Assembly: GCF_000003605.2 (NCBI RefSeq)
Contig: NW_003106597.1
Span: forward strand, 333,161 to 355,861
DNA length: 22,701 nucleotides
DNA from: Saccoglossus kowalevskii
Taxonomy: Eukaryota; Hemichordata; Enteropneusta; Harrimaniidae
Direction: 5' to 3'
In this document: positions 6,844 to 22,701 of the stretch, one piece after another
Position numbering within the stretch: position 1 is the first letter of the stretch
Layout: the number at the start of each line of letters is the position of its first letter
Notes under the pieces: generated by a model
The model's database searches: none
Seen by the model: only the letters and a program-made list of their open reading frames with translations
Told to the model about the DNA's origin: nothing
Program-made: the position numbers and the translations under genes

Positions 6844-6939
6844 GGGTCGTTAGTCAGTCGCCGGTACATTCGTCTGCCACTCATATAATAACATAACATG
6901 AGTGGTAGGCGAATGCACAGGCGACTGACTACTTTAGTA
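6844..6939. repeat. 96-bp fold-back within the left TIR
   Basis: The arms 6851-6884 and 6898-6931 are 34 bp each with four mismatches (TAGTCAGTCGCC .. CCACTCAT), and the loop is 13 bp. The right TIR lacks this block: there AAAGTA runs straight into TGGGG. The right arm ends CTACTTTAG, the reverse complement of flanking element sequence, which suggests templated inverted duplication rather than, or as well as, a miniature transposon. Only AGTA is shared at both borders. Confidence 0.75.
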
Positions 6940-6984
6940 TGGGGTGAGAATACCGCCAAAATTAGCTTGGTGTCATTATTTGAA

Positions 6985-7250
6985 CATTGTTTAGTTGTTT
7001 GGTCTTTATTTGGAAACTTGTTTGGTTATTATTTGGTCATTATTCGGTTATTTGGTCTTTATTTAAACATTATTTTGCACTTATTGTGTTATTACTGCAG
7101 CATCATATTGCTATTGTTTCATTATTCCAACTTCATTTCTTAATTATTTCATTATTGTGTAATTGCTACAATATTATTTTGTCATTGTTTCACAATGTTA
7201 CAATTGTGTCGTTATTTAGACATTATCTTGACATTCAATTGTTATAAGAT
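6985..7250. repeat. AT-rich subterminal repeats of the left TIR
   Basis: Degenerate 8-10 bp motifs of the type TTATTTGG, TCATTATT and ACATTATT follow one another. The same array in reverse complement is at 11045-11320. Such subterminal arrays are typical transposase-binding regions. The leucine- and phenylalanine-rich open frames over both arrays are by-products of the repeats. Confidence 0.6.
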
Positions 7251-7253
7251 TCT

Positions 7254-7335
7254 TGATATTCGGTTCGCTTAACTTGCGATGACCTCGACATTCGGTTCGC
7301 TCTACTTGCGATTACCTCAACATTCGATTACCTGA
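7254..7335. repeat. 31-bp direct repeats in the left TIR
   Basis: The units GATATTCGGTTCGCTTAACT, GACATTCGGTTCGCTCTACT and AACATTCGATTACC follow each other at about 31-bp spacing, each with TTGCGAT.ACCTC between. The mirrored set in the right TIR is at about 10955-11042. Confidence 0.7.
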
Positions 7336-7801
7336 CCTACATTAGCTGACCCCGCTATACATGTAGTATTCAATCCATAGTCCCGGGCCGCCTCCGATAA
7401 AGCATTGCTCAAGATGGCAATGCGGCCTTTGTAAAAGTTAGCGGGAATTTCTAAATAATGGTCGTTTCGCCAACATCCAGGGAACTAACTGAGGTTGTCA
7501 GAGCCTGTTGATTAGAGAATATTACTTCTCTAAATGCGATGACTGAAGTGAGGGGGAATTATTACCCAATTGATCGTGACACGGTCAATAACCGGCCTTT
7601 CAGCGGACTTGGTAGTGCCATCACGGTTCTTTTTTTTTAGTAAAAGTTGAACCATGTATCATTCTGATTCTCATTCCCCGGCCTCTCTTATCTCATGTAC
7701 TTATTGACAGACATATTCCTGTTATGGGCGTGATTTGTTTTACGTTCACTCCGTTATTGTCAAGATGCCAATATATGTACGGCTGATTTGTAGCGCGCCA
7801 T

Positions 7802-10044: not shown

Positions 10045-10218
10045 NNNNNNNNNNNNNNNNNNNNNNNNNNNNNNNNNNNNNNNNNNNNNNNNNNNNNNNN
10101 NNNNNNNNNNNNNNNNNNNNNNNNNNNNNNNNNNNNNNNNNNNNNNNNNNNNNNNNNNNNNNNNNNNNNNNNNNNNNNNNNNNNNNNNNNNNNNNNNNNN
10201 NNNNNNNNNNNNNNNNNN
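10045..10218. other. Assembly gap of 174 N
   Basis: Unresolved bases. The right flank is TGGGGGGGGGG, so a G-homopolymer is a likely reason for the gap. Open frames crossing it have no meaning. Confidence 0.99.
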
Positions 10219-10583: not shown

Positions 10584-10836
10584 AACTGGAAAAATAGACG
10601 AAAAAGAATGAAAAATAAAATCTATAAAAATACCAGCTTGAAGAATATTAGTTGCTCTTTCAAATTTTGCGAGTTCACGGCACGATAACGAGTCTTGTGA
10701 ACGGTTCTTAGCACATCTCTCGCGAATTTCGCTAGGAGCGCGTTGTGTCAACAACAAGTTTTGCGGCATTTGATATTTCGTCACGACAGGCTCTGACGAC
10801 CTCAGTCAGTTCCCTGGATGTTGATGAAACGGCCAT
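10584..10836 (-). pseudogene. Transposase-like relic, N-terminal segment
   Basis: An ATG at 10836 opens MAVSSTSRELTEVVRACRDE, then ISNAAKLVVDTTRS, and stops at 10732. Shifting frame at that point continues as APSEIRERCAKNRSQDSLSC and then RELAKFERATNILQAG. This gives a start and two frames of one charged, helical-looking protein broken by one frameshift. The start codon lies within the right TIR. The left TIR has the equivalent start at 7459 followed by an early stop. Confidence 0.55.
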
Positions 10837-11398
10837 CATTCAGAAATTCCCGCTAACTTTTACAAAGGCTACATTGCCATCATGAGCAACGCTTTATCAG
10901 AGATGACCCGGGACTATGGATTGAATATTACATGTATAGCGGGGTCAGCTAATGTAGGTCAGGTAATCGAATGTTGAGGTAATCGCAAGTCAAGCGAACC
11001 GAATGTTGAGGTAATCGCAAGTCAAGCGAACCGAATGTCAAGACATTTGGACATGAAAATAACCGAATCTTATGACAATTGAATGTCAAGATAATGTCTA
11101 AATAACCACACAATTGTAATAGAATGAAACAATGACAAAATAATATTGTAATAATTACACAATAATGAAATGACAATACGATGCTGCAGTAATAACACAA
11201 CAATGGAATAAGCGCAAAATAATGTTTAAATAAAGAATAAATAACCGAATAATGACCAAATAATAACCAAACGAGTTTCCAAATAAAGATCAAACAACTA
11301 AACAATGTTCAAATAATGACACCAAGCTAATTTTGGCGGTATTCTCACCCCATACTTTAGGTCCTTTTTATTATCCAAGAAACGTTCGAACGTCCGTG
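10786..11398 (-). repeat. Right terminal inverted repeat of the large transposon
   Basis: Reverse-complement partner of 6796-7508, without the 96-bp fold-back. It carries the same layout: 31-bp repeats with GAATGTTGAGGTAATCGCAA, AT-rich subterminal repeats, AACGTTTCTTGG near the end and terminus CACGGACGTTCG. Confidence 0.85.
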
Positions 11399-12439: not shown

Positions 12440-12580
12440 GCTCTGGATTTCACTGGTGTCTGTGTTAGTGTTTTCTGTTGCATTGGTAGTCTGATTCGTT
12501 CGTCTATTGGTAATTGTGAACGAATCAGACTACCGATTCAACAAAAAACGCCAAAAACAGACACCAGCAAAATCCAGAGC
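12440..12580. repeat. 141-bp fold-back, arms of about 62 bp
   Basis: The arms 12440-12501 and 12518-12580 pair over GCTCTGGATTT, CTGGTGTCTGT, TGTTG and GGTAGTCTGATTCGTTC with scattered mismatches. The loop is 16 bp. The inner 17 bp are perfectly paired and the outer parts are more diverged. No target duplication was seen. It is a miniature fold-back transposon or a palindromic duplication. Confidence 0.8.
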
Positions 12581-13297: not shown

Positions 13298-13396
13298 ATG
13301 GCGAGTGGAGCGAGTAAAGAAATAAAAAATCTGCTAAAAAATGCCAAGGAATCCATCAAGAACAAAGATTACAAAGATGCTTTGAAACACTGTAAA
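13298..13396 (+). CDS. SKIC3: SKIC3 coding exon 1
   Basis: 33 codons from [10 protein letters not shown] to DALKHCK, donor GTAAGT. It covers the first TPR helix pair (lysine-rich A helix, then YKDALKHCK). Confidence 0.92.
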
Positions 13397-16300
13397 GTAA
13401 GTGAATTCTGGAACATGCATGACTAATTTTTTTTTCAATTCAAAATAGCTTATCAAGTTGTGCTTCCAGTAACAACATTGTATGGAACCAGGAAGAATTT
13501 ATAGTAGGCAATGAGTGTGAGGGAAATTGAGAATAGGGTTTCACACTCATCTCAACCCTAACGAGCGTAATGTTCAAGACACATAAAACAAGGGACTGTC
13601 AATCAAAGGAACAGGTAACAAATAAACGATATGAAGAAACTGCATTTATTACTCGTCACTGGAAATGGTTACATGTACTCGTGCACTAGAACAAGTGTTA
13701 GGATCAGCCACCATAACAAATTCTAGCGGGCTTGGTGCTGATTGGTTCATAGTGCTATGACCTATGATTGGCTAATAAAAGAATAGCATTTGAAATGGCA
13801 TCTGCTATCGTTATTTGTGCTAGTTCTCTTCGAGTTAAACATGTAATAAAGACGATCGAAACACAATAACAATATAAGAAAGCACTGAAACACAATTGAA
13901 TAATATTGAATCAATAATACAAACATAACACAGTAATAATTAGGGAAATAATAGTGGATTATTTTCCCTCTCATCGACAATGAGAATGGTGGGAAGTTTT
14001 TCATACATATTTTCACTGATTTTGTTCAAAGTTAGTGCAAAGACTAGACATAATTGGATACATATGCACATCAATCTGTGTCCATTTCGGTCCCCAAAAA
14101 ATTAAATCACCAAATTTGAACATATCATCAGGCATGCTGTTTGTTTGTGTCCAATGCTATTTATCAGATATGCTTTGACTAATCACATTGAGATTTAACA
14201 CACAGACCACGTATAATGACATACATATGCACATCAATTCTTATTATCATTTGATCAAGTATGGCTGACTGGTGGCCATTTTAGTCTTCAAAATTGCTAA
14301 ATTTTGAAACCACTATCTGCATGGGTTGGAATTAAATTTTTCAATGAGTACTTAAAGAAATTGTCTTCTATTGTAGGCAGTATTAAAGCAAGACAAGGGC
14401 AACTACAATGCATGGGTGTTTGTTGGTGTGTCTGCTGGTGAAATGGACCAGCCGGAGCAAGCAAGGATGGCTTATAAGAAAGCCATTGACTCAGATCCAC
14501 AGCAGATCTTAGCATGGCAGGTATGTTTATGGCGTTTATTAAAACTGTAAAAATACTTTATTTTAGCTGAAATTAATTTTGGCTGATAAAACTTTTTGTG
14601 TGTTTTGTATGGAATATATTTTGACTGATTTTTGAAAAGTAGAATGTAAAATATAATAACTATATATTCGCTAGATTTCACTTTCCCTGAATCATCCCTT
14701 CAGTGCAAATAACAAAAATAAAGTATTTTAAAATACTGGTCCATATGAAATAAGATTCCCCACAAAGGGAGTCAATGGTAGTTAATATTTATATTTAAGT
14801 CCTTGACTTCTTTAACACTTTGAACGCCAAATTTTGTTCCCGACCATATTTCGGTAAATTTGTCCAAATTGTCTGTATCGTATTTATCCGGGTAAAAACC
14901 CAGGGTCCTGAACATGGAAAATTGCTATATAAAAAAAGGTGGGCTTATGCCCTGGCATCCCCAGCAAAAAATATTTGCGAAAATTGACAACATGCAGACC
15001 GAACTGTGGCAGGGAATAGAACGGCAAACGAAAACATGCAACAGAAATAAATGAACAATATGCAGCATCAGAAGTAAAACAAAAGTAATTTATTGCTTAT
15101 AATGTGACAAATAAACCAGTGACAGTGAGGAATCATTTGAATTAGGATCTCCCCGCCAACAAACATGCCTAATACGCTAAACTCAAAATGTCATGGGTTA
15201 AACTGCGTAAAATTATTTTCGGTTTTAACAAATTACGGCTTTGTCTTGTAGTTCGTTGATATCATTACGTACAATTTGAACTTGGCACTTATAATCCACG
15301 GATTTGGCTGTCTGTCAGTTTGGCACTTTTAAGTCATGTCTAATCACAATAAAGAGACAAGAAAAATTGGAACGCTCTGCTACGATGGCACACAATGCTT
15401 TTGTTTACAGTCTGTCAATCATCTTTGACCTTTAAGTATATACTTTACTGATTGGCTAAGAATTACATCACTACGAGTGTTTCATCATAGAGGTCAAGTC
15501 ATAGACGCTCATCAAGCGCCCACCCCAAAAAATCATGATTTTCTGAGTTGAGGCCCCTGGGCACTAAGGCGGTCGAGTACGGTACATCTTTTATGCAAGT
15601 GCAAGCAGTAGTAATAGAACAAAAATGGTACGTAAAATTACGCAACACACCCACCCACCCACCCACCCACCCACATTTCAAAATGCTCAACCTTTAATCC
15701 ATTTTAAGAGAAAATATTGCTCATCGTTTACAACAAGGATTCATAATCTTAGTATTTTGAGCCAAATTCTAATGACATCTAAAATTCAGCTAAACAAATT
15801 GTACTCGCCATTCATCCATCCTTAATATACATAGTGTTAGTATACAATTCTACCATTTATAGTATACAAATGCACATTGATAACACATTGATGATATTTA
15901 ATATCATATTCATAAAGCATATTAATGGTAATGCAGTTTTAAGTCCATCTCCAGTAATGGGAAAAAAATCAATTATTATCATTATTATACCTCATAGCCC
16001 TATTAGCCAATCAGATTTGTGTATTTAGAGAAGGGTATATATTTGCATATTGACTTCTCAGCAGTAAAAGACGTAATATTCGGCTTCTGTGCTTGTGCAG
16101 ATGTTATGAGCCGTCTAAGCTGATTCACCGTTGAGGTTTGTTGGCGTTTTCTTTGAGAATCACATGTAATTTTATGAACAGGTCGAACGACTATAACATT
16201 TTCTGCTCTAAAAGGTATCTTGCATTACTTGGGATGAGTTATGTTCTATGTGAATACATGTATATGTACATAGCTAGCTCTGTTAGCTTGAATTTCGCAC

Positions 16301-19300
16301 TCACTTCGGGTCAACAAATCAGTATATCTTGGCCGGGGTCAATATTTATATATTATTGACCATATTTAGTTTAGTTTATATAATTTTAAGGGCACTTTTC
16401 TTGTGTCACATGTTATCAAATTTTGTGTCAGCAAGTAATCTTGCAAAGAATCAACTCATTGTTATCGTAATGAAGTTGTTCTGCACTATGTCAGTATTGC
16501 ACATGTATTTACTTTGCTTAGCCCTCTAACTGTCAGTATTGTATTTACTTTCTTTAGCCCTCTAACTGTCAGTATTGTATTTACTTTGTTTAGCCCTCTA
16601 ACTGTCAGTATTGTATTTACTTTCAAATTGTTTAGCCCTCTAACTGTCAGTATTGTATTTACGTTGTTTAGCCCTCTAACTGTGAATATTATATTTACTT
16701 TGTTTAGCCCTTTGTCAGTATTGTATTTACTTTGTTTAGCCCTCTAACTGTCAGTATTGTATTTACTTTCAAATTGTTTAGCCCTCTAACTGTCAGTATT
16801 GTATTTACGTTGTTTAGCCCTCTAACTGTCAGTATTGTATTTACTTTGTTTAGCCCTCTAACTGTTAATATTGTATTTACTTTGTTTACCCCTCTAACTG
16901 TCAGTATTGTATTTACTTTGTTTAGGGTCTGTGTGCATTCTATGAGAAACATAATATCCCTGCATTCAAGGCTGATCTACAAGATACTTACATCAAAATG
17001 ATGCAAATCTATGAAAATACTGACATGAAAAAATGGAAAGAGGTTGCCAAAAAACTCGCTCAGTTACATCTGCAGCTTGGTAATGAAATGCAGGTAATAT
17101 CTTCACTGTGAGGTGGATCTATTTATTACAACAGAGAATATTCCATGATAGCAATATCAGTCAAATAATCCCCCCCCCCCCCCCCGCCACACACACACAT
17201 TGGGCAAGATCCCATAGCCCCAATTGGAAGGCCTCAAGCCACAGGGTTTCCTTCAATTGCTGCTACAATAGATGAGTCTGCTGGTGCTTGTGTTCACCAT
17301 GCCTGGTTGATGTTAGGATAGTGCTTTACTGTCCAAAACAGCAACATTGTCAGCTAAGTTGCTGACTGCTTTGGTATGCGCGTCTGAAGATCATTATCTT
17401 ACTTGACCCTCTTCAATCAAACTAACACCAAAAGGAGACTTCGCACTGATTACGTGGAACACACACAAGTCAAGTCTTATGGAAATCGGATCAAGGATTA
17501 CACCTCCAATTTCAATGTATTTAAATAATCTGTGTACGTTGGCATATACATGTATCACAATGTATGAGATATCAAAATATAAGACACACTGTATGTACAG
17601 TGTCAAATTAAAAGCGGCAACCCCCAAATTATAATGAAACGATCTGTTGAAGTTTTGCGCGCAAGTTTGTGTTTATTATTACATGTACCGGTACATCTCC
17701 GTGTTCATTTTTTGATACGACAGGAGTGAAATGCATGGCGGGCAATCGTGTCTATGGACATGTTCCAGTCGGTCAGCCGGCAGTGGAAGTGCAAAGATAC
17801 ACAACATAAATTTTACCGTGAATTTATTGCATAGCCCGCTTGGTGTGACCCATTTCAATATTCTCCACTGTCCTTCAAAGGGGAAGGAGCTGTTAAAATT
17901 TTTTTGAGGAGACATTGAATGAAGAAGTAGTAGATGGTCAGCTGTTTATTGGAGAAGGCGACACTGTTGTGATGGTTGTAGCATCTAAAACGAGAATTGC
18001 AAAGAAATGATGTATTTGCTAATCGGTTCACTGAATTCGCTATTCTGGATGCCCTGGACATGATCATGCCAGAGGTTTCTTCCGACATTGCGCATTTTAA
18101 ATATTGTCCGCTATATACTAAGAAAACCTAAAAAAAGTGGCCCTTTTCAGGGCCACTACATCCTCCAAGAGAGATATACTGTTCTATAGTATAATATTTA
18201 TATTACGTATATACAAGACACTTCGCAGTGGGCTTCATTCACAGTCAGTAATATTTACGAAAATTTGTGTTCACTATTTTATACACTGGCTTGGTAATTC
18301 CCATTACCAATTAGACAGCATTTCGGCTATTTTTTCAACAAATCCAAAATCACTCTCGATAATTTTGTTTACTTTACATTTGTACTATGACTACAGAGAA
18401 ACTACTTATACATTATAACGCCTTGCGTAACAAAGCAATTCCAGGCAACATAAAAACATTCTATGTCCCCTAATACAATGACTCGTCCAGAGTGGACACG
18501 ACCACGAATCGGCGCCAGTGAGAAAGCCAACTGTTTAGACAAAACCCAAGCAGTTAGCTAATTCGCTAGCGAGTTTGCAAATTGGCTGCCCCAATACTTC
18601 TGAGATTTGCTGTAATAATAAACAAAACAAGCACACCACAGTCACTCTACTGTGAGCACACTGAGAGAAATAGCCATGTGTTAACTTGAGTTTACTTACA
18701 CTGCCCACATTAAGTCGAGTGGCACCCCCTCCTAAAAATGAGTTGATCCGAGAAGGTCAAGTAACATAACAATCTTTAGAAACGTACACCAAAGCAGTCA
18801 GCAACTTAGCTGGCAATGTTGCTGTTTTGGTGTTCGGAACAATATGGCGGTGACAGTAAAATTGCTATGGGACAAGAGAGATGGTCACATCATCCTGTAG
18901 TCCCAAACATGAATATAGTACATGTAACTACAAAATGCACTAAATTATGATTACCCAGGGCTATTATCATTTGCAATAGTAACAACAAGAAATCAGTAGA
19001 GAGAACAGGGAGATTCCTTGCCTCTAACAAATGATATCTTTAATTTCACTTTATTGTGTTTGAGAAAGCATGTATTGAATATTGAGTTGTTTGATCATTT
19101 TTCCTATGTAAAACAAGTTCTCTCTTTTTACCTCGTCAGGCAATTACAATATGGCAGAGTATCACTAACTGTAAAGATTTGGAAGAAAAAGATGGGATTG
19201 AATCCTGGATAAATATATCCAATATATTGATTGGTATGAAAGTTGTACCACCAGAGTTGACTGATTTAGTAAGTCCTTGATTTTACTGCAGTATTCTCGG

Positions 19301-21220
19301 GGCCATCCAAAGTTTTCATCTGTACTGTACTGTACTGTACTTAAGTATAGTTGTTGAGAACCCCCCTCCCCGACCTTGGTATTAAACAAGATTACCCCTG
19401 AATGTCCAACATCTATAAATTTGATTGCTTAGGATTACCGTAAAATTCCTAATTGAGTCTGCGGCTTTAATAAAAATTGATTTTTTTCAATGGATGACTT
19501 CAGATTCGTGAAGTCTTGGTGATTTCGATTACATGTAGATGCTCTATCCGATACGATATCCGCCATGTTTGTCCAAGCACATTAGAGACTTGAAACTGTT
19601 CTTTGACCTGATAGGTCAAGTCACCAATATTAACCAATCGAAACGCTGGATGGTGCCAACGTGTTTGAGTTACCATAGCTCGTTTGATTATGTTAATGGT
19701 AGTTCAGGGACTTCATGGTGATCGCAACATGGAAGAAACTTACTGTTGTTGTAGTGCGATCGTTTGGCTTTGATTTTGATAGGAAAACGGCATAATTTTT
19801 TTAAAAATCAATACATTGAAGAAGAATTTAACACTTTTTACGATGATAACAGCTAATTGACGAAGCGCAGTTTACCCATTCACGCTACCCACAATAAACA
19901 CTGTACTTTTGAATAGGCGTCAATGACTATGGAAAACCTAAATCAGACTCTAATCTAGGCATCAAGAAAGATTGAAATGTTTGAAAAATTATGGTATATC
20001 TTTTTCTGAAATATGTGGTGGCTGTTTGGTTTGTGATGCGGCTTATATTGCAGGCTTTTTCCTGGGATCAAAACTTGTCAATTTCAACGTGAAACAATGT
20101 CTCAAGTTAGGGGTGTGGCTTCTATGAAACCTGCGGCCTCAAATATGATTTTTATGGTACTTCAAAGTTTGTGATATTTCCTCAACTTTAGCTGCCTTCA
20201 CCAGCTCTTCGACCAACATTCTACAGCAGCTCGCTCAGATCCGACAGAAATACATGGTACAGTGGTGCACGTCTTAGCATGTCTCTGCTCCCAAGACGAT
20301 CCTGAATACAGAACTCGTGTTGATTTCTGAGATGATTTAGTGAGGTTGACGCATTTTGGTCACCATTCCTAATGTTGATGATTTCATGTTTCACAATACA
20401 AAATGTATCTTGCATTACTTGGGACAAGTTATGTTCTATGTGAATACTTGTAACCATAGTCACTTCAATATTGCACTCTCTTCGGGTCAACAAATCTGTA
20501 TATCACCCTTGGCCCGGGTCAATATTTATTTCTATATTGTTTACCATATTTAGTGGAACAAGTTCAGGACAATGCAGGGAAAATAATAATTATGCATAGA
20601 TTAATTCATGTGCAATTATGTCTCCCATTCTGTGTATAATGTTTCAGATGATAAAATATGACATGAATTATTTTTTCAAAGCTCATTGTTTGCTATAGAT
20701 GCTTTGCACAAAACGGGGTGAAGACCAGTGTACTCTCTTAGCCGATGTGACTTGTCACTGACACACAGTTATGCTTCTGTTGATGCACCAATGACATAAC
20801 AGTAAATCATACATTGGTACAATTAGTCTTCTAAAACATCTTACTATAGTTGTAGAATTTGTAATTTGGTAATAAAATGAATGGGATAAACATTTTATAA
20901 ACAAAATCAGTTCTGTTAGAGGGCAGCAATTATAAAGTGATTCACTAGCCTAACAAAAATGACAGAAACATTCATTTAGGGTTTATGTTGTTTTGTGCTA
21001 TTGAATGTAACCCCTGCCAAACATTGTGGGTAAAGGTGAAATTGTAAGTTTGAATTTGTATGTTTTTAATTTCAAATGGAGATGTTTGCTTTAAATTGTA
21101 TTTTTTTGGTTTCAGATGGAGACATGCTTGGATACAGTGTTACACTCGAATACATCCATGACTGATCCTGAATTACAGCTTTATTATAAGAAATATATCA
21201 GTATTTTAATGGATAAATAT
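13298..21220 (+). CDS. SKIC3: SKIC3/TTC37 N-terminal part, five coding exons
   Basis: Tetratricopeptide-repeat scaffold of the cytoplasmic Ski complex, which with the SKIV2L helicase and WDR61 unwinds mRNA and feeds it to the RNA exosome. The exons 13298-13396, 14377-14520, 16926-17093, 19140-19268 and 21116-21220 join in frame to 215 residues; the gene continues beyond the window (vertebrate proteins are about 1560 residues). The start [18 protein letters not shown] resembles the vertebrate N-terminus, and [21 protein letters not shown] and ILAWQGL match its TPR landmarks closely. TPR-like helical pairs span about residues 7-40, 43-77 and 78-112. Residues 138-215 correspond to the more variable helical region that follows in vertebrates. 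All five introns are phase 0 with GT-AG ends. The identification rests on remembered family sequence and is strong for the first three exons. Confidence 0.92.
13397..14376 (+). other. SKIC3 intron between coding exons 1 and 2
   Basis: Phase 0 intron of 980 bp, AT-rich. An 84-codon minus-strand frame at 13762-14016 has no support. No repeat was recognised. Confidence 0.6.
14377..14520 (+). CDS. SKIC3: SKIC3 coding exon 2
   Basis: 48 codons, [20 protein letters not shown] through DPQQILAWQ. The acceptor is TTCTATTGTAG and the donor GTATGT. It contains a canonical TPR ([27 protein letters not shown]). Confidence 0.95.
15648..15730. repeat. CCCA microsatellite within a dispersed repeat
   Basis: About seven ACCC units at 15648-15674 are followed by GCTCAACCTTTAATCC and ATTTTAAGAGAAAAT. 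The latter matches the copy at 12700-12800. The C-rich start of the repeat has probably expanded here. Confidence 0.65.
16212..16370 (+). repeat. Dispersed repeat, copy 1
   Basis: Shares GTATCTTGCATTACTTGGGA, GTTATGTTCTATGTGAATAC, CTTCGGGTCAACAAATC and GGGTCAATATTTAT, in the same order and orientation, with 20399-20553. Similarity may begin near 16130. Non-coding. Type unknown (short interspersed element or miniature transposon). Confidence 0.75.
16488..16925 (+). repeat. 36-bp minisatellite of 3' splice-site cassettes
   Basis: Eleven full units run from 16522 to 16925, preceded by a partial one from about 16488. The unit is CCCTCTAACTGTCAGTATTG followed by TATTTACTTTGTTTAG. Eight units are 36 bp, two are 42 bp (extra CAAATT before GTTTAG) and one is 32 bp (lacks CTAAC). 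The lengths sum exactly to 404 bp. A 42-bp unit is followed each time by a unit with ACGTTG, so a block of about four units was duplicated. Each unit carries a branch-point-like CTAAC 28 bases before a T-rich tract and AG. The last unit's TTTAG is the acceptor of coding exon 3. Confidence 0.93.
16890..16925 (+). promoter_or_regulatory. Functional 3' splice site formed by the last unit
   Basis: The CTCTAAC motif (candidate branch A at 16897), the T-rich tract and TTTAG|GGTCTG meet the spacing expected of an animal 3' splice site. The unit before it (16854-16889) has lost its AG (TTTAC) and also its CAG (GTTAAT). Confidence 0.75.
16926..17093 (+). CDS. SKIC3: SKIC3 coding exon 3
   Basis: 56 codons, [14 protein letters not shown] through [12 protein letters not shown]. 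It continues the third TPR begun by LAWQ in exon 2 and resembles the vertebrate LASLYEKYN and VYQKLLDLYE region. Donor GTAATA. Confidence 0.93.
17170..17199. repeat. Poly-C and CA microsatellite
   Basis: Sixteen C are followed by G, then a CACACACACACA run. A low-complexity tract. Confidence 0.9.
17333..17423 (+). repeat. Inverted-repeat arm, left
   Basis: CCAAAACAGCAACATTG, CAGCTAAGTTGCTGACTGCT, then GAAGATCATTATCTTACTTG is the reverse complement, with scattered mismatches, of 18741-18830. Similarity may continue outward past a 22-bp insertion next to the right copy. Confidence 0.8.
17897..18131 (+). pseudogene. Coding-like relic in two frames, unidentified
   Basis: Frame one (17897-18010) reads [20 protein letters not shown] and then [14 protein letters not shown] and stops. 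Frame two (17982-18131) reads [20 protein letters not shown], then [16 protein letters not shown], then [10 protein letters not shown] and stops. Both look protein-like and follow each other with a frameshift, suggesting one decayed gene, probably of a mobile element. I could not match it to a histone convincingly, although IMP with preceding AI at H3-like spacing was noted. It ends eight bases before the histone-type stem-loop. Confidence 0.35.
18139..18154 (+). terminator. Histone-mRNA-type 3' stem-loop
   Basis: GGCCCTTTTCAGGGCC fits the metazoan histone 3' stem-loop consensus at every position (GG, three pyrimidines, TTYTNA, three purines, CC). It is preceded by an A-rich stretch and followed by ACTAC. 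The paired outer bases GT and AC extend the stem. Confidence 0.6.
18166..18174 (+). promoter_or_regulatory. Histone-downstream-element-like purine motif
   Basis: CAAGAGAGA lies 11 bases after the stem-loop. The known U7-binding downstream element of animal histone genes is purine-rich of the CAAGAAAGA type at similar spacing. Confidence 0.5.
18741..18830 (-). repeat. Inverted-repeat arm, right
   Basis: Partner of 17333-17423. Together the arms bound about 1.5 kb that includes the coding-like relics and the stem-loop, so the whole may be a mobile element. No clear target duplication was found. Confidence 0.8.
19140..19268 (+). CDS. SKIC3: SKIC3 coding exon 4
   Basis: 43 codons, [20 protein letters not shown] through [10 protein letters not shown]. 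The acceptor is TTTTTACCTCGTCAG and the donor GTAAGT. It joins in phase 0 on both sides, and the [18 protein letters not shown] pattern fits the helix following the first TPRs of the vertebrate protein. Confidence 0.85.
20399..20553 (+). repeat. Dispersed repeat, copy 2
   Basis: Same-orientation partner of 16212-16370. It lacks the ATGTATATGTACATAGCTAG stretch of copy 1 and has small indels around TTGGCCCGGGTCAATA. Confidence 0.75.
21071..21090 (+). other. Degenerate copy of the exon 5 acceptor
   Basis: TTCAAATGGAGATGTTTGCT lies 40 bp upstream of TTCAGATGGAGACATGCTTG at the intron-exon border. CAA replaces the acceptor CAG. A short old duplication of the splice junction. Confidence 0.5.
21116..21220 (+). 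CDS. SKIC3: SKIC3 coding exon 5
   Basis: 35 codons, [16 protein letters not shown] through [14 protein letters not shown]. The acceptor is TTTTTTTGGTTTCAG and the donor GTAAGC. It aligns in character with the vertebrate segment that contains LYRHFIQSLSKF. The initial ATG is an internal methionine. Confidence 0.85.
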
Positions 21221-21267: not shown

Positions 21268-22701
21268 TTGTATACGTATGTGCGTTGTATAAGTATGTGC
21301 GTTGTATAAGTATGTGCATTGTATAAGTATGTGCGTTGTATACGTATGTGCGTTGTATAAGTATGTGCGTTGTATAAGTATGTGCATTGTATAAGTATGT
21401 GCGTTGTATACGTATGTGCGTTGTATATGTATGTGCGTTGTATACGTATGTGCGTTGTATACTTATGTGCATTGTATACGTATGTGCATTGTATACGTAT
21501 GTGCATTGTATACGTATGTGCGTTGTATACGTATGTGCATTGTATACGTATGTGCATTGTATAAGTATGTGCATTGTATACGCATATGCGTTGTATACGT
21601 ATGTGCGTTGTATACGTATGTGCGTTGTATACGTATGTGCGTTGTATACGTATGTGTGTTGTATACGTATGTGCATTGTATACGTATGTGCATTGTATAC
21701 GTATGTGCGTTGTATACGTATGTGCGTTGTATACGTATGTGCATTGTATACGTATGCGCGTTGTATACGTATGCGCGTTGTATACGTATGTGCGTTGTAT
21801 ACGTATGTGCGTTGTATACGTATGTGCGTTGTATACGTATGTGCGCTGTATACGTATGTGCCTTGTATACGTATGTGCCTTGTATACGTATGTGCATTGT
21901 ATAAGTATGTGCATTGTATACGTATGTGCGTTGTATACCTATGTGCATTGTATACGTATGTGCTTTGTATACGTATGTGCCTTGTATACGTATGTGCATT
22001 GTATAAGTATGTGCATTGTATACGTATGTGCGTTGTATACGTATGTGCATTGTATACATATGTGCATTGTATACGTATGTGCCTTGTATACGTATGTGCA
22101 TTGTATACGTATGTGCCTTGTATACGTATGTGCGTTGTATACGTATGTGCATTGTATACGTATGTGCGTTGTATACGTATGTGCGTTGTATACGTATGTG
22201 CATTGTATACGTATGTGCGTTGTATAAGTATGTGCGTTGTATACGTACATGTATGTGCGTTGTATACGTATGTGCATTGTATACGTATGTGCATTGTATA
22301 CGTATGTGCGTTGTATATGTATGTGTGTTGTATAAGTATGTGCATTGTATAAGTATGTGCGTTGTATACGTATGTGCGTTGTATACGTATGTGCGTTGTA
22401 TACGTATGTGCGTTGTATACTTACAAATGTATGTGCATTGTATACGTATGTGCATTGTATACATATGTGCATTGTATACGTATGTGCGTTGTATACGTAT
22501 GTGCATTGTATACGTATGTGCATTGTATACGTATGTGCATTGTATAAGTATGTGCATTGTATACGTATGTGCGTTGTATACGTATGTGCGTTGTATACGT
22601 ATGTGCGTTGTATACGTATGTGCGTTGTATACGTATGTGCATTGTATACGTATGTGCGTTGTATACGTATGTGCGTTGTATACGTATGTGCGTTGCATAC
22701 G
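21268..22701. repeat. 17-bp minisatellite, about 84 units, to window end
   Basis: The unit is TTGTATACGTATGTGCG, with frequent last-base A and frequent TATAAG for TATACG. Rarer forms are TATATG, TACCT, TACAT and GTGCC. Two units near 22240 and 22415 carry insertions of 6 and 8 bp. Units 1-4 and 5-8 (21268-21335, 21336-21403) show the same variant order, a 68-bp higher-order duplication. No unit has a stop in any frame, so long but meaningless open frames cover the array on both strands. It begins 47 bases after the donor of SKIC3 coding exon 5 and is intronic. Confidence 0.97.

Follow-up and report, generated by a model that had tools for sequence, protein, structure and literature searches.

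Does a minisatellite that repeats an intron's own 3′ splice signals regulate the splicing of its gene, or is it simply tolerated? The question is raised by intron 2 of SKIC3 in the stretch of Saccoglossus kowalevskii DNA analysed here (22,701 nucleotides, referred to as the window). This intron closes with twelve head-to-tail units spanning 16484-16925, with the consensus CCCTCTAACTGTCAGTATTGTATTTACTTTGTTTAG. An initial annotation had placed about eleven units at 16488..16925 and had offered both answers, a length-variable regulator of productive splicing and a tolerated curiosity. The array and its location stood, and the count was corrected to twelve. The portion of the gene that frames the array consists of the following features.

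13298..13396, plus strand: SKIC3 coding exon 1 (from the ATG), donor GTAAGT, from translation and phmmer matches to SKIC3/TTC37 chains

14377..14520, plus strand: SKIC3 coding exon 2, acceptor TTGTAG/GCA, donor CAG/GTATGT, phase 0, from translation and phmmer

14521..16925, plus strand: SKIC3 intron 2, 2405 bp, with the array at its 3′ end

16926..17093, plus strand: SKIC3 coding exon 3, donor CAG/GTAATA, from translation and phmmer

When exons 1-3 were translated and compared with PDB by phmmer, the match was to Superkiller complex protein 3 / Tetratricopeptide repeat protein 37 (TTC37), with E = 5e-49. It covered query residues 4-131 and crossed the exon 2/3 junction without a gap. Lower in the same list were designed TPR proteins, followed by other Superkiller protein 3 chains; the best-matching Superkiller complex protein 3 / TTC37 chains are presumably human. 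The assignment of the window gene as the predicted SKIC3/TTC37 orthologue holds on this alignment. Introns 1 and 2 are both phase 0. A search for further SKIC3 exons in the window gave two candidate ORFs with no convincing match. The productive acceptor of intron 2 is predicted to be the AG at 16925, since it is the sole AG of the array's 21 that leaves the reading frame open and the SKIC3 alignment is gapless there. This agrees with the earlier proposal that the last unit supplies the acceptor of coding exon 3. The array itself divides as follows.

16484..16521, plus strand: array unit 1, degenerate, lacking CTAAC and ending in CTTAG

16522..16853, plus strand: array units 2-10, comprising eight complete branch-point/TTTAG modules and unit 7 (32 bp, lacking CTAAC)

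16854..16889, plus strand: array unit 11, the penultimate unit, its AG lost and its end reading TTTAC

16890..16925, plus strand: array unit 12, the terminal unit, with a CTAAC branch-point-like site 28 nt from the predicted functional AG (AG/GGT)

Eight of the twelve units are 36 bp long, in keeping with the earlier statement that most are. Units 4 and 8 reach 42 bp through a CAAATT insert, unit 7 has 32 bp, and unit 1 is drawn as 38 bp, its left limit being a matter of judgement. CTAAC followed by TTTAG had been stated for every unit and is present in nine; the exceptions are units 1 and 7, which lack CTAAC (unit 1 also ending in CTTAG), and unit 11, which ends in TTTAC. The G of the AG lies 28 nt past the second A of CTAAC, or 34 nt past it in the 42-bp units. 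The array stops exactly at 16925, the final base of intron 2, and exon 3 begins at 16926. Exon sequence is absent from all twelve units; after the AG, CCC stands where one unit meets the next and GGT where exon 3 begins. This anatomy, together with the exact 3′ limit, upholds the view that what has been repeated is the 3′ end of the intron itself.

The array is real and far beyond anything seen in shuffled sequence. Its top TRF score was 719, while 200 dinucleotide shuffles of the 2405-bp intron gave one array only, with a score of 53. Complete CTAAC...TTTAG modules number nine in intron 2; the 200 shuffles averaged 0.18 and never exceeded 2. The pyrimidine content of the array is 0.72. No unusual RNA fold was found for the array, its folding being no better than that of shuffles (z = 0.26), and masking of the upstream AGs by RNA structure was ruled out on this ground. 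In a search of the array DNA against the assembly, which skips very common words, the sole match was the array itself. The assembly contains the array once, and the number of its units may include an assembly error.

The reading that fits these data best, held here with good confidence, is that the array is a tolerated intronic minisatellite born from a duplicated intron end, with a functional terminal copy and no regulatory role. A founding duplication, an event suggested by the anatomy, would by chance have had its end at the final base of SKIC3 intron 2, and each unit would for that reason be a copy of the branch point, the T-rich stretch and the TAG of that intron. Slippage or unequal exchange may then have lengthened the array, and at least one step would have added several units at once. 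The terminal unit, like exon 3, would be preserved by selection and the units upstream of it left to drift; the array would be tolerated because its last copy works.

The history written in the units is consistent with such growth. Units 3, 10 and 12 agree with the consensus at 36 of 36 positions; divergence is greatest in unit 1, at the far end from the exon, with 30 matches over 38 bp. A pair made of a 42-bp unit and a unit with a T-to-G variant is present twice (units 4-5 and 8-9; TRF period 146) and is read as the probable trace of a multi-unit duplication, which would fit ordinary minisatellite turnover. Two possible sources of the unit were discarded. A dispersed repeat at 16210-16370 is not the origin of the array, because it stops 113 bp short of it. 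Membership of the unit in a dispersed family was rejected as well: the array DNA matches only itself, and the unit was seen nowhere else among the listed matches to a CTAAC/TTTAG pattern (107 in total).

An unlikely alternative is that an older intronic minisatellite, whose unit already held a branch point and TTTAG, was joined to exon 3 by deletion of the original intron end. An array of this kind does exist in the genome away from an acceptor. The L018 array (C2606; reverse strand 233-726) has 12.5 copies of a 39-bp unit whose consensus carries CTAAC and TTTAG. It is intronic. A normal acceptor, with its own CTAAC and T-rich stretch, follows 236 bp downstream, and the exon behind that acceptor encodes the end of an MPPED2-like protein (PDB match E = 7.8e-9). 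Such a capture, however, requires a deletion exact to the base, and with the terminal unit equal to the consensus and the most diverged unit farthest off, growth from the exon side fits at least equally.

Several other repeats were observed in the window. The dispersed repeat just mentioned has a second copy at 20400-20554 (79%). Two segments of about 570 bp, 6936-7508 and 10786-11356, form an inverted pair with 85% identity and flank about 3.3 kb that include an N run at 10045-10218; each bears a short 32-bp tandem repeat, and the pair resembles a DNA transposon or a foldback element. An 80-bp repeat forms an inverted pair at 17333-17412 and 18751-18830 (87.5% identical). The segments 12440-12580 and 6851-6931 are self-complementary (81%) and hairpin-like, perhaps miniature transposons. 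A 17-bp minisatellite with over 80 copies of the unit CGTTGTATACGTATGTG extends from 21266 to the window end at 22701, with N beyond; its unit contains GTATGT, a donor-like word that also serves as the exon 2 donor.

The duplicated intron end, tolerated as proposed above, still leaves a row of potential acceptors in front of exon 3. About ten upstream acceptors had been counted initially; there are 20 upstream AGs, ten at unit ends and ten in internal CAGs, so that with the real acceptor the array holds 21 (11 at unit ends). Eight of the ten internal CAGs sit 7 nt past the second A of a CTAAC. C follows the AG at all ten upstream unit ends and T at the ten internal CAGs; the real acceptor has G in this position. 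SKIC3 intron 1 and the MPPED2-like exon, whose acceptors were identified as well, also read AG/G. Acceptors generally prefer G after the AG, and the three cases here fit, though they are few. The spliceosome thus probably prefers 16925, the sole AG of the array that has a G and an exon after it. Some splicing to upstream copies is likely nevertheless and would be cleared by nonsense-mediated decay, with no regulatory role.

The consequence of upstream use was predicted correctly by the initial annotation. Reading on from any of the 20 upstream AGs meets a premature stop; for the AG at 16707 it comes 98 codons in, for the remaining 19 after 5-14 codons. The same outcome was obtained with control AGs, both those 21-404 nt upstream of the intron 1 acceptor (13/13) and those in the part of intron 2 directly preceding the array, which served as a stand-in (18/18). 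The argument that the units read TAG in the gene's phase is therefore factually right but weak as evidence, because control AGs always give stops too, and regulatory design was no longer read from the premature stops.

These observations bear on a length-variable regulator, in which upstream modules compete for U2AF/U2, some transcripts stop early and the length of the array sets the amount of SKIC3; we consider it improbable. The raw material for it is present, with nine complete modules (one of them the real acceptor) and 20 upstream AGs that all give premature stops, and so are precedents for its parts. TERT intron 6 VNTR6-1, with a 38-bp unit, is tied to splicing and nonsense-mediated decay, and its deletion raised the full-length fraction, according to the available text of the report (PMC11830802). 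VNTR6-1 shares with the SKIC3 array its nature as an intronic minisatellite and a similar unit length; it differs, as far as that text describes it, in lying about 3.5 kb from an exon, in being thought to act via G-quadruplexes and in having no repeated acceptors (PMC11830802). Minisatellites at amphioxus exon-intron boundaries, called mirages, are described in the accessible portions of two reports as length-unstable; the same portions state that they do not interfere with regular splicing (Adh3 data, globin RT-PCR), conceding that cryptic sites may be used (PMC3087553, PMC3902484). Against regulation in SKIC3 stand the generic nature of the stops and the upstream units themselves, which appear unconstrained: no sign of constraint on them was found in the alignment, two lacking the branch-point motif and one the AG.

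Quite improbable, too, is a decoy bank, in which copy number would divert SKIC3 transcripts into nonsense-mediated decay and so tune an RNA-decay factor, with the loss of the unit 11 AG as compensation. That loss, in the unit closest to the real acceptor, could reflect selection against the strongest competitor, although it concerns one of eleven upstream units and is a weak indication. A regulatory role of the array is possible, but of all the findings only the lost AG of unit 11 points to it, and weakly.

If tolerance of a duplicated intron end is the better account, the exact abutment of array and exon should not call for a special cause, and this was assessed from the density of minisatellites. 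Five arrays (period 32-157, at least 5 copies) were present in 53.6 kb of assembly outside the window, sampled as 14 stretches of which six contained letters and eight read N, under a TRF filter of period at least 15 and at least 3 copies. Scaled to the 572-Mb assembly, this density corresponds to about 53,000 arrays. By rough estimate, 3-55 exact abutments of an array edge on an acceptor would be expected by chance, assuming 100,000-250,000 acceptors and Poisson limits on five arrays in six stretches. The exact abutment is within the range of chance because the assembly is so rich in minisatellites, and on this rough estimate some acceptor-adjoining array is to be expected in such a genome. 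With abutment within chance and stops generic, the regulator of productive splicing put forward at the outset was not borne out, and the tolerated curiosity is the better fit.

The sampled stretches offered further points of comparison. In three of the five arrays a branch-point/AG order is weakly present on one strand, and their pyrimidine contents are at most 0.5, versus 0.72 in the SKIC3 array. Eight of the ten edges of the sampled arrays were readable, and inspection of these by eye revealed no exon besides an open frame at L014. At that edge the frame is open over the 100 codons examined and the array has no terminal AG; against Pfam the frame gave no significant match (best E = 0.06, below the family cut-off). 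The sampled stretches are rich in long minisatellites, among them a 41-bp minisatellite of about 53 copies at L014 995-3211. The GC content of the six nuclear stretches is 0.31-0.36; that of amphioxus is about 0.41, which makes amphioxus an improbable host. In the mitochondrial contig AAA stands at conserved Lys and AGA at conserved Ser positions, which speaks against the echinoderm code.

Two patterns were then counted across the genome. CTAAC-N16-30-TTTAG-N2-12-CTAAC had 107 matches versus 705 for the reversed pattern, and three TTTTNYAG at 18-48 nt gaps had 2146 versus 4145 for the reversed control, counts that in both patterns and both controls may be dominated by a few satellites. There is no excess of acceptor-like tandem arrays over the reversed controls. 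Four compact CTAAC/TTTAG arrays are among the matches listed, the SKIC3 array, C2353, C2606 and C4471, along with dispersed, satellite-like copies on C3522, C3765 and C2872. An acceptor position was found, among the matches listed, for only the SKIC3 array of the four. The downstream edges of the other three (L017-L019) were read, and none lies at a recognisable acceptor, though an exon there is still possible. The L017 array has no terminal AG and is followed by a 94-codon open frame, for which no Pfam match and no significant PDB match were obtained (best E = 0.26). At L019 the TRF edge falls after an AG, but the sequence there is the purine-rich AAAAAGTAAG, without a T-rich stretch, and the 45-codon open frame that follows had no match in Pfam or PDB.

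Two further long arrays have strongly acceptor-like units, one at G000:C254:696314-696860 with TTGTTGTCTTGTTTTCCAG followed by GAG every 26 bp, the other at C138:150486-151906 (minus strand) with CATCTCTCTATTTACTATGTTTTTCAG every 44 bp. Both are good candidates for a census of acceptors.

That a lineage process linked to splicing or transcription preferentially amplifies intron ends, SKIC3 being one of many, is very doubtful in spite of the several amphioxus genes with boundary repeats in the accessible text (Adh3, globins, troponin C, PGBD5), since neither genome-wide count exceeds its reversed pattern and one of four compact arrays among the matches listed was found at an acceptor.

The tolerated intron-end duplication can be compared with the amphioxus mirages, described in the text available as minisatellite-like tandem duplications of exon-intron boundaries in Adh3, BflGb6, BflGb9, troponin C and PGBD5; the Adh3 units measure 10-72 bp, and the BflGb6 repeat joins the intron 3′ end to the start of exon 2, in six and three copies in two haplotypes (PMC3087553, PMC3902484). 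As far as that description goes, the SKIC3 array shares with mirages the position at a boundary, splice signals in many units (nine of twelve here) and an overlapping unit size, and with BflGb6 the involvement of the intron 3′ end. Mirage units span the boundary and contain exon sequence, whereas the SKIC3 units are wholly intronic and extend no farther than base -1. Because its units lack exon sequence, the SKIC3 array is not a mirage proper in the sense of those papers, and it is provisionally filed as a variant of boundary minisatellites. Another splice-site-bearing minisatellite, at a donor in IFI6, was reportedly first described by Turri in 1995. In the human gene two downstream units serve as donors and three mRNAs result, according to the part of the report available (PMC4526556). 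On that text, IFI6 shares with SKIC3 units that bear splice sites beside a real exon, and differs in that the site is a donor, versus an acceptor in SKIC3. A literature search, with most subscription papers outside its reach, found no report of acceptor units that lie wholly within an intron and are arrayed in tandem.

The SKIC3 array offers a natural test of which of several complete, near-identical 3′ splice sites in a row the spliceosome takes. Smith and colleagues are said to have described in 1993 how a 3′ splice site is chosen through scanning and through competition between AGs, and the AG scanning rule is a general one from laboratory studies. According to the text available, scanning from the branch point locates the AG, and an AG too close to that point goes unrecognised (PMC10946897). 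As stated there, the rule would apply to each SKIC3 module, and SKIC3 presents it with a natural twelve-fold array. Protein would come only from the most distal acceptor, though the upstream copies are transcribed earlier and would be favoured on that account and by the scanning rule. The array therefore bears on how far exon definition and the base after the AG override position. It also shows that a boundary minisatellite can consist of intron sequence alone, and such arrays may extend beyond amphioxus. If splicing proves clean, the SKIC3 array would be a lesson in tolerance, not regulation.
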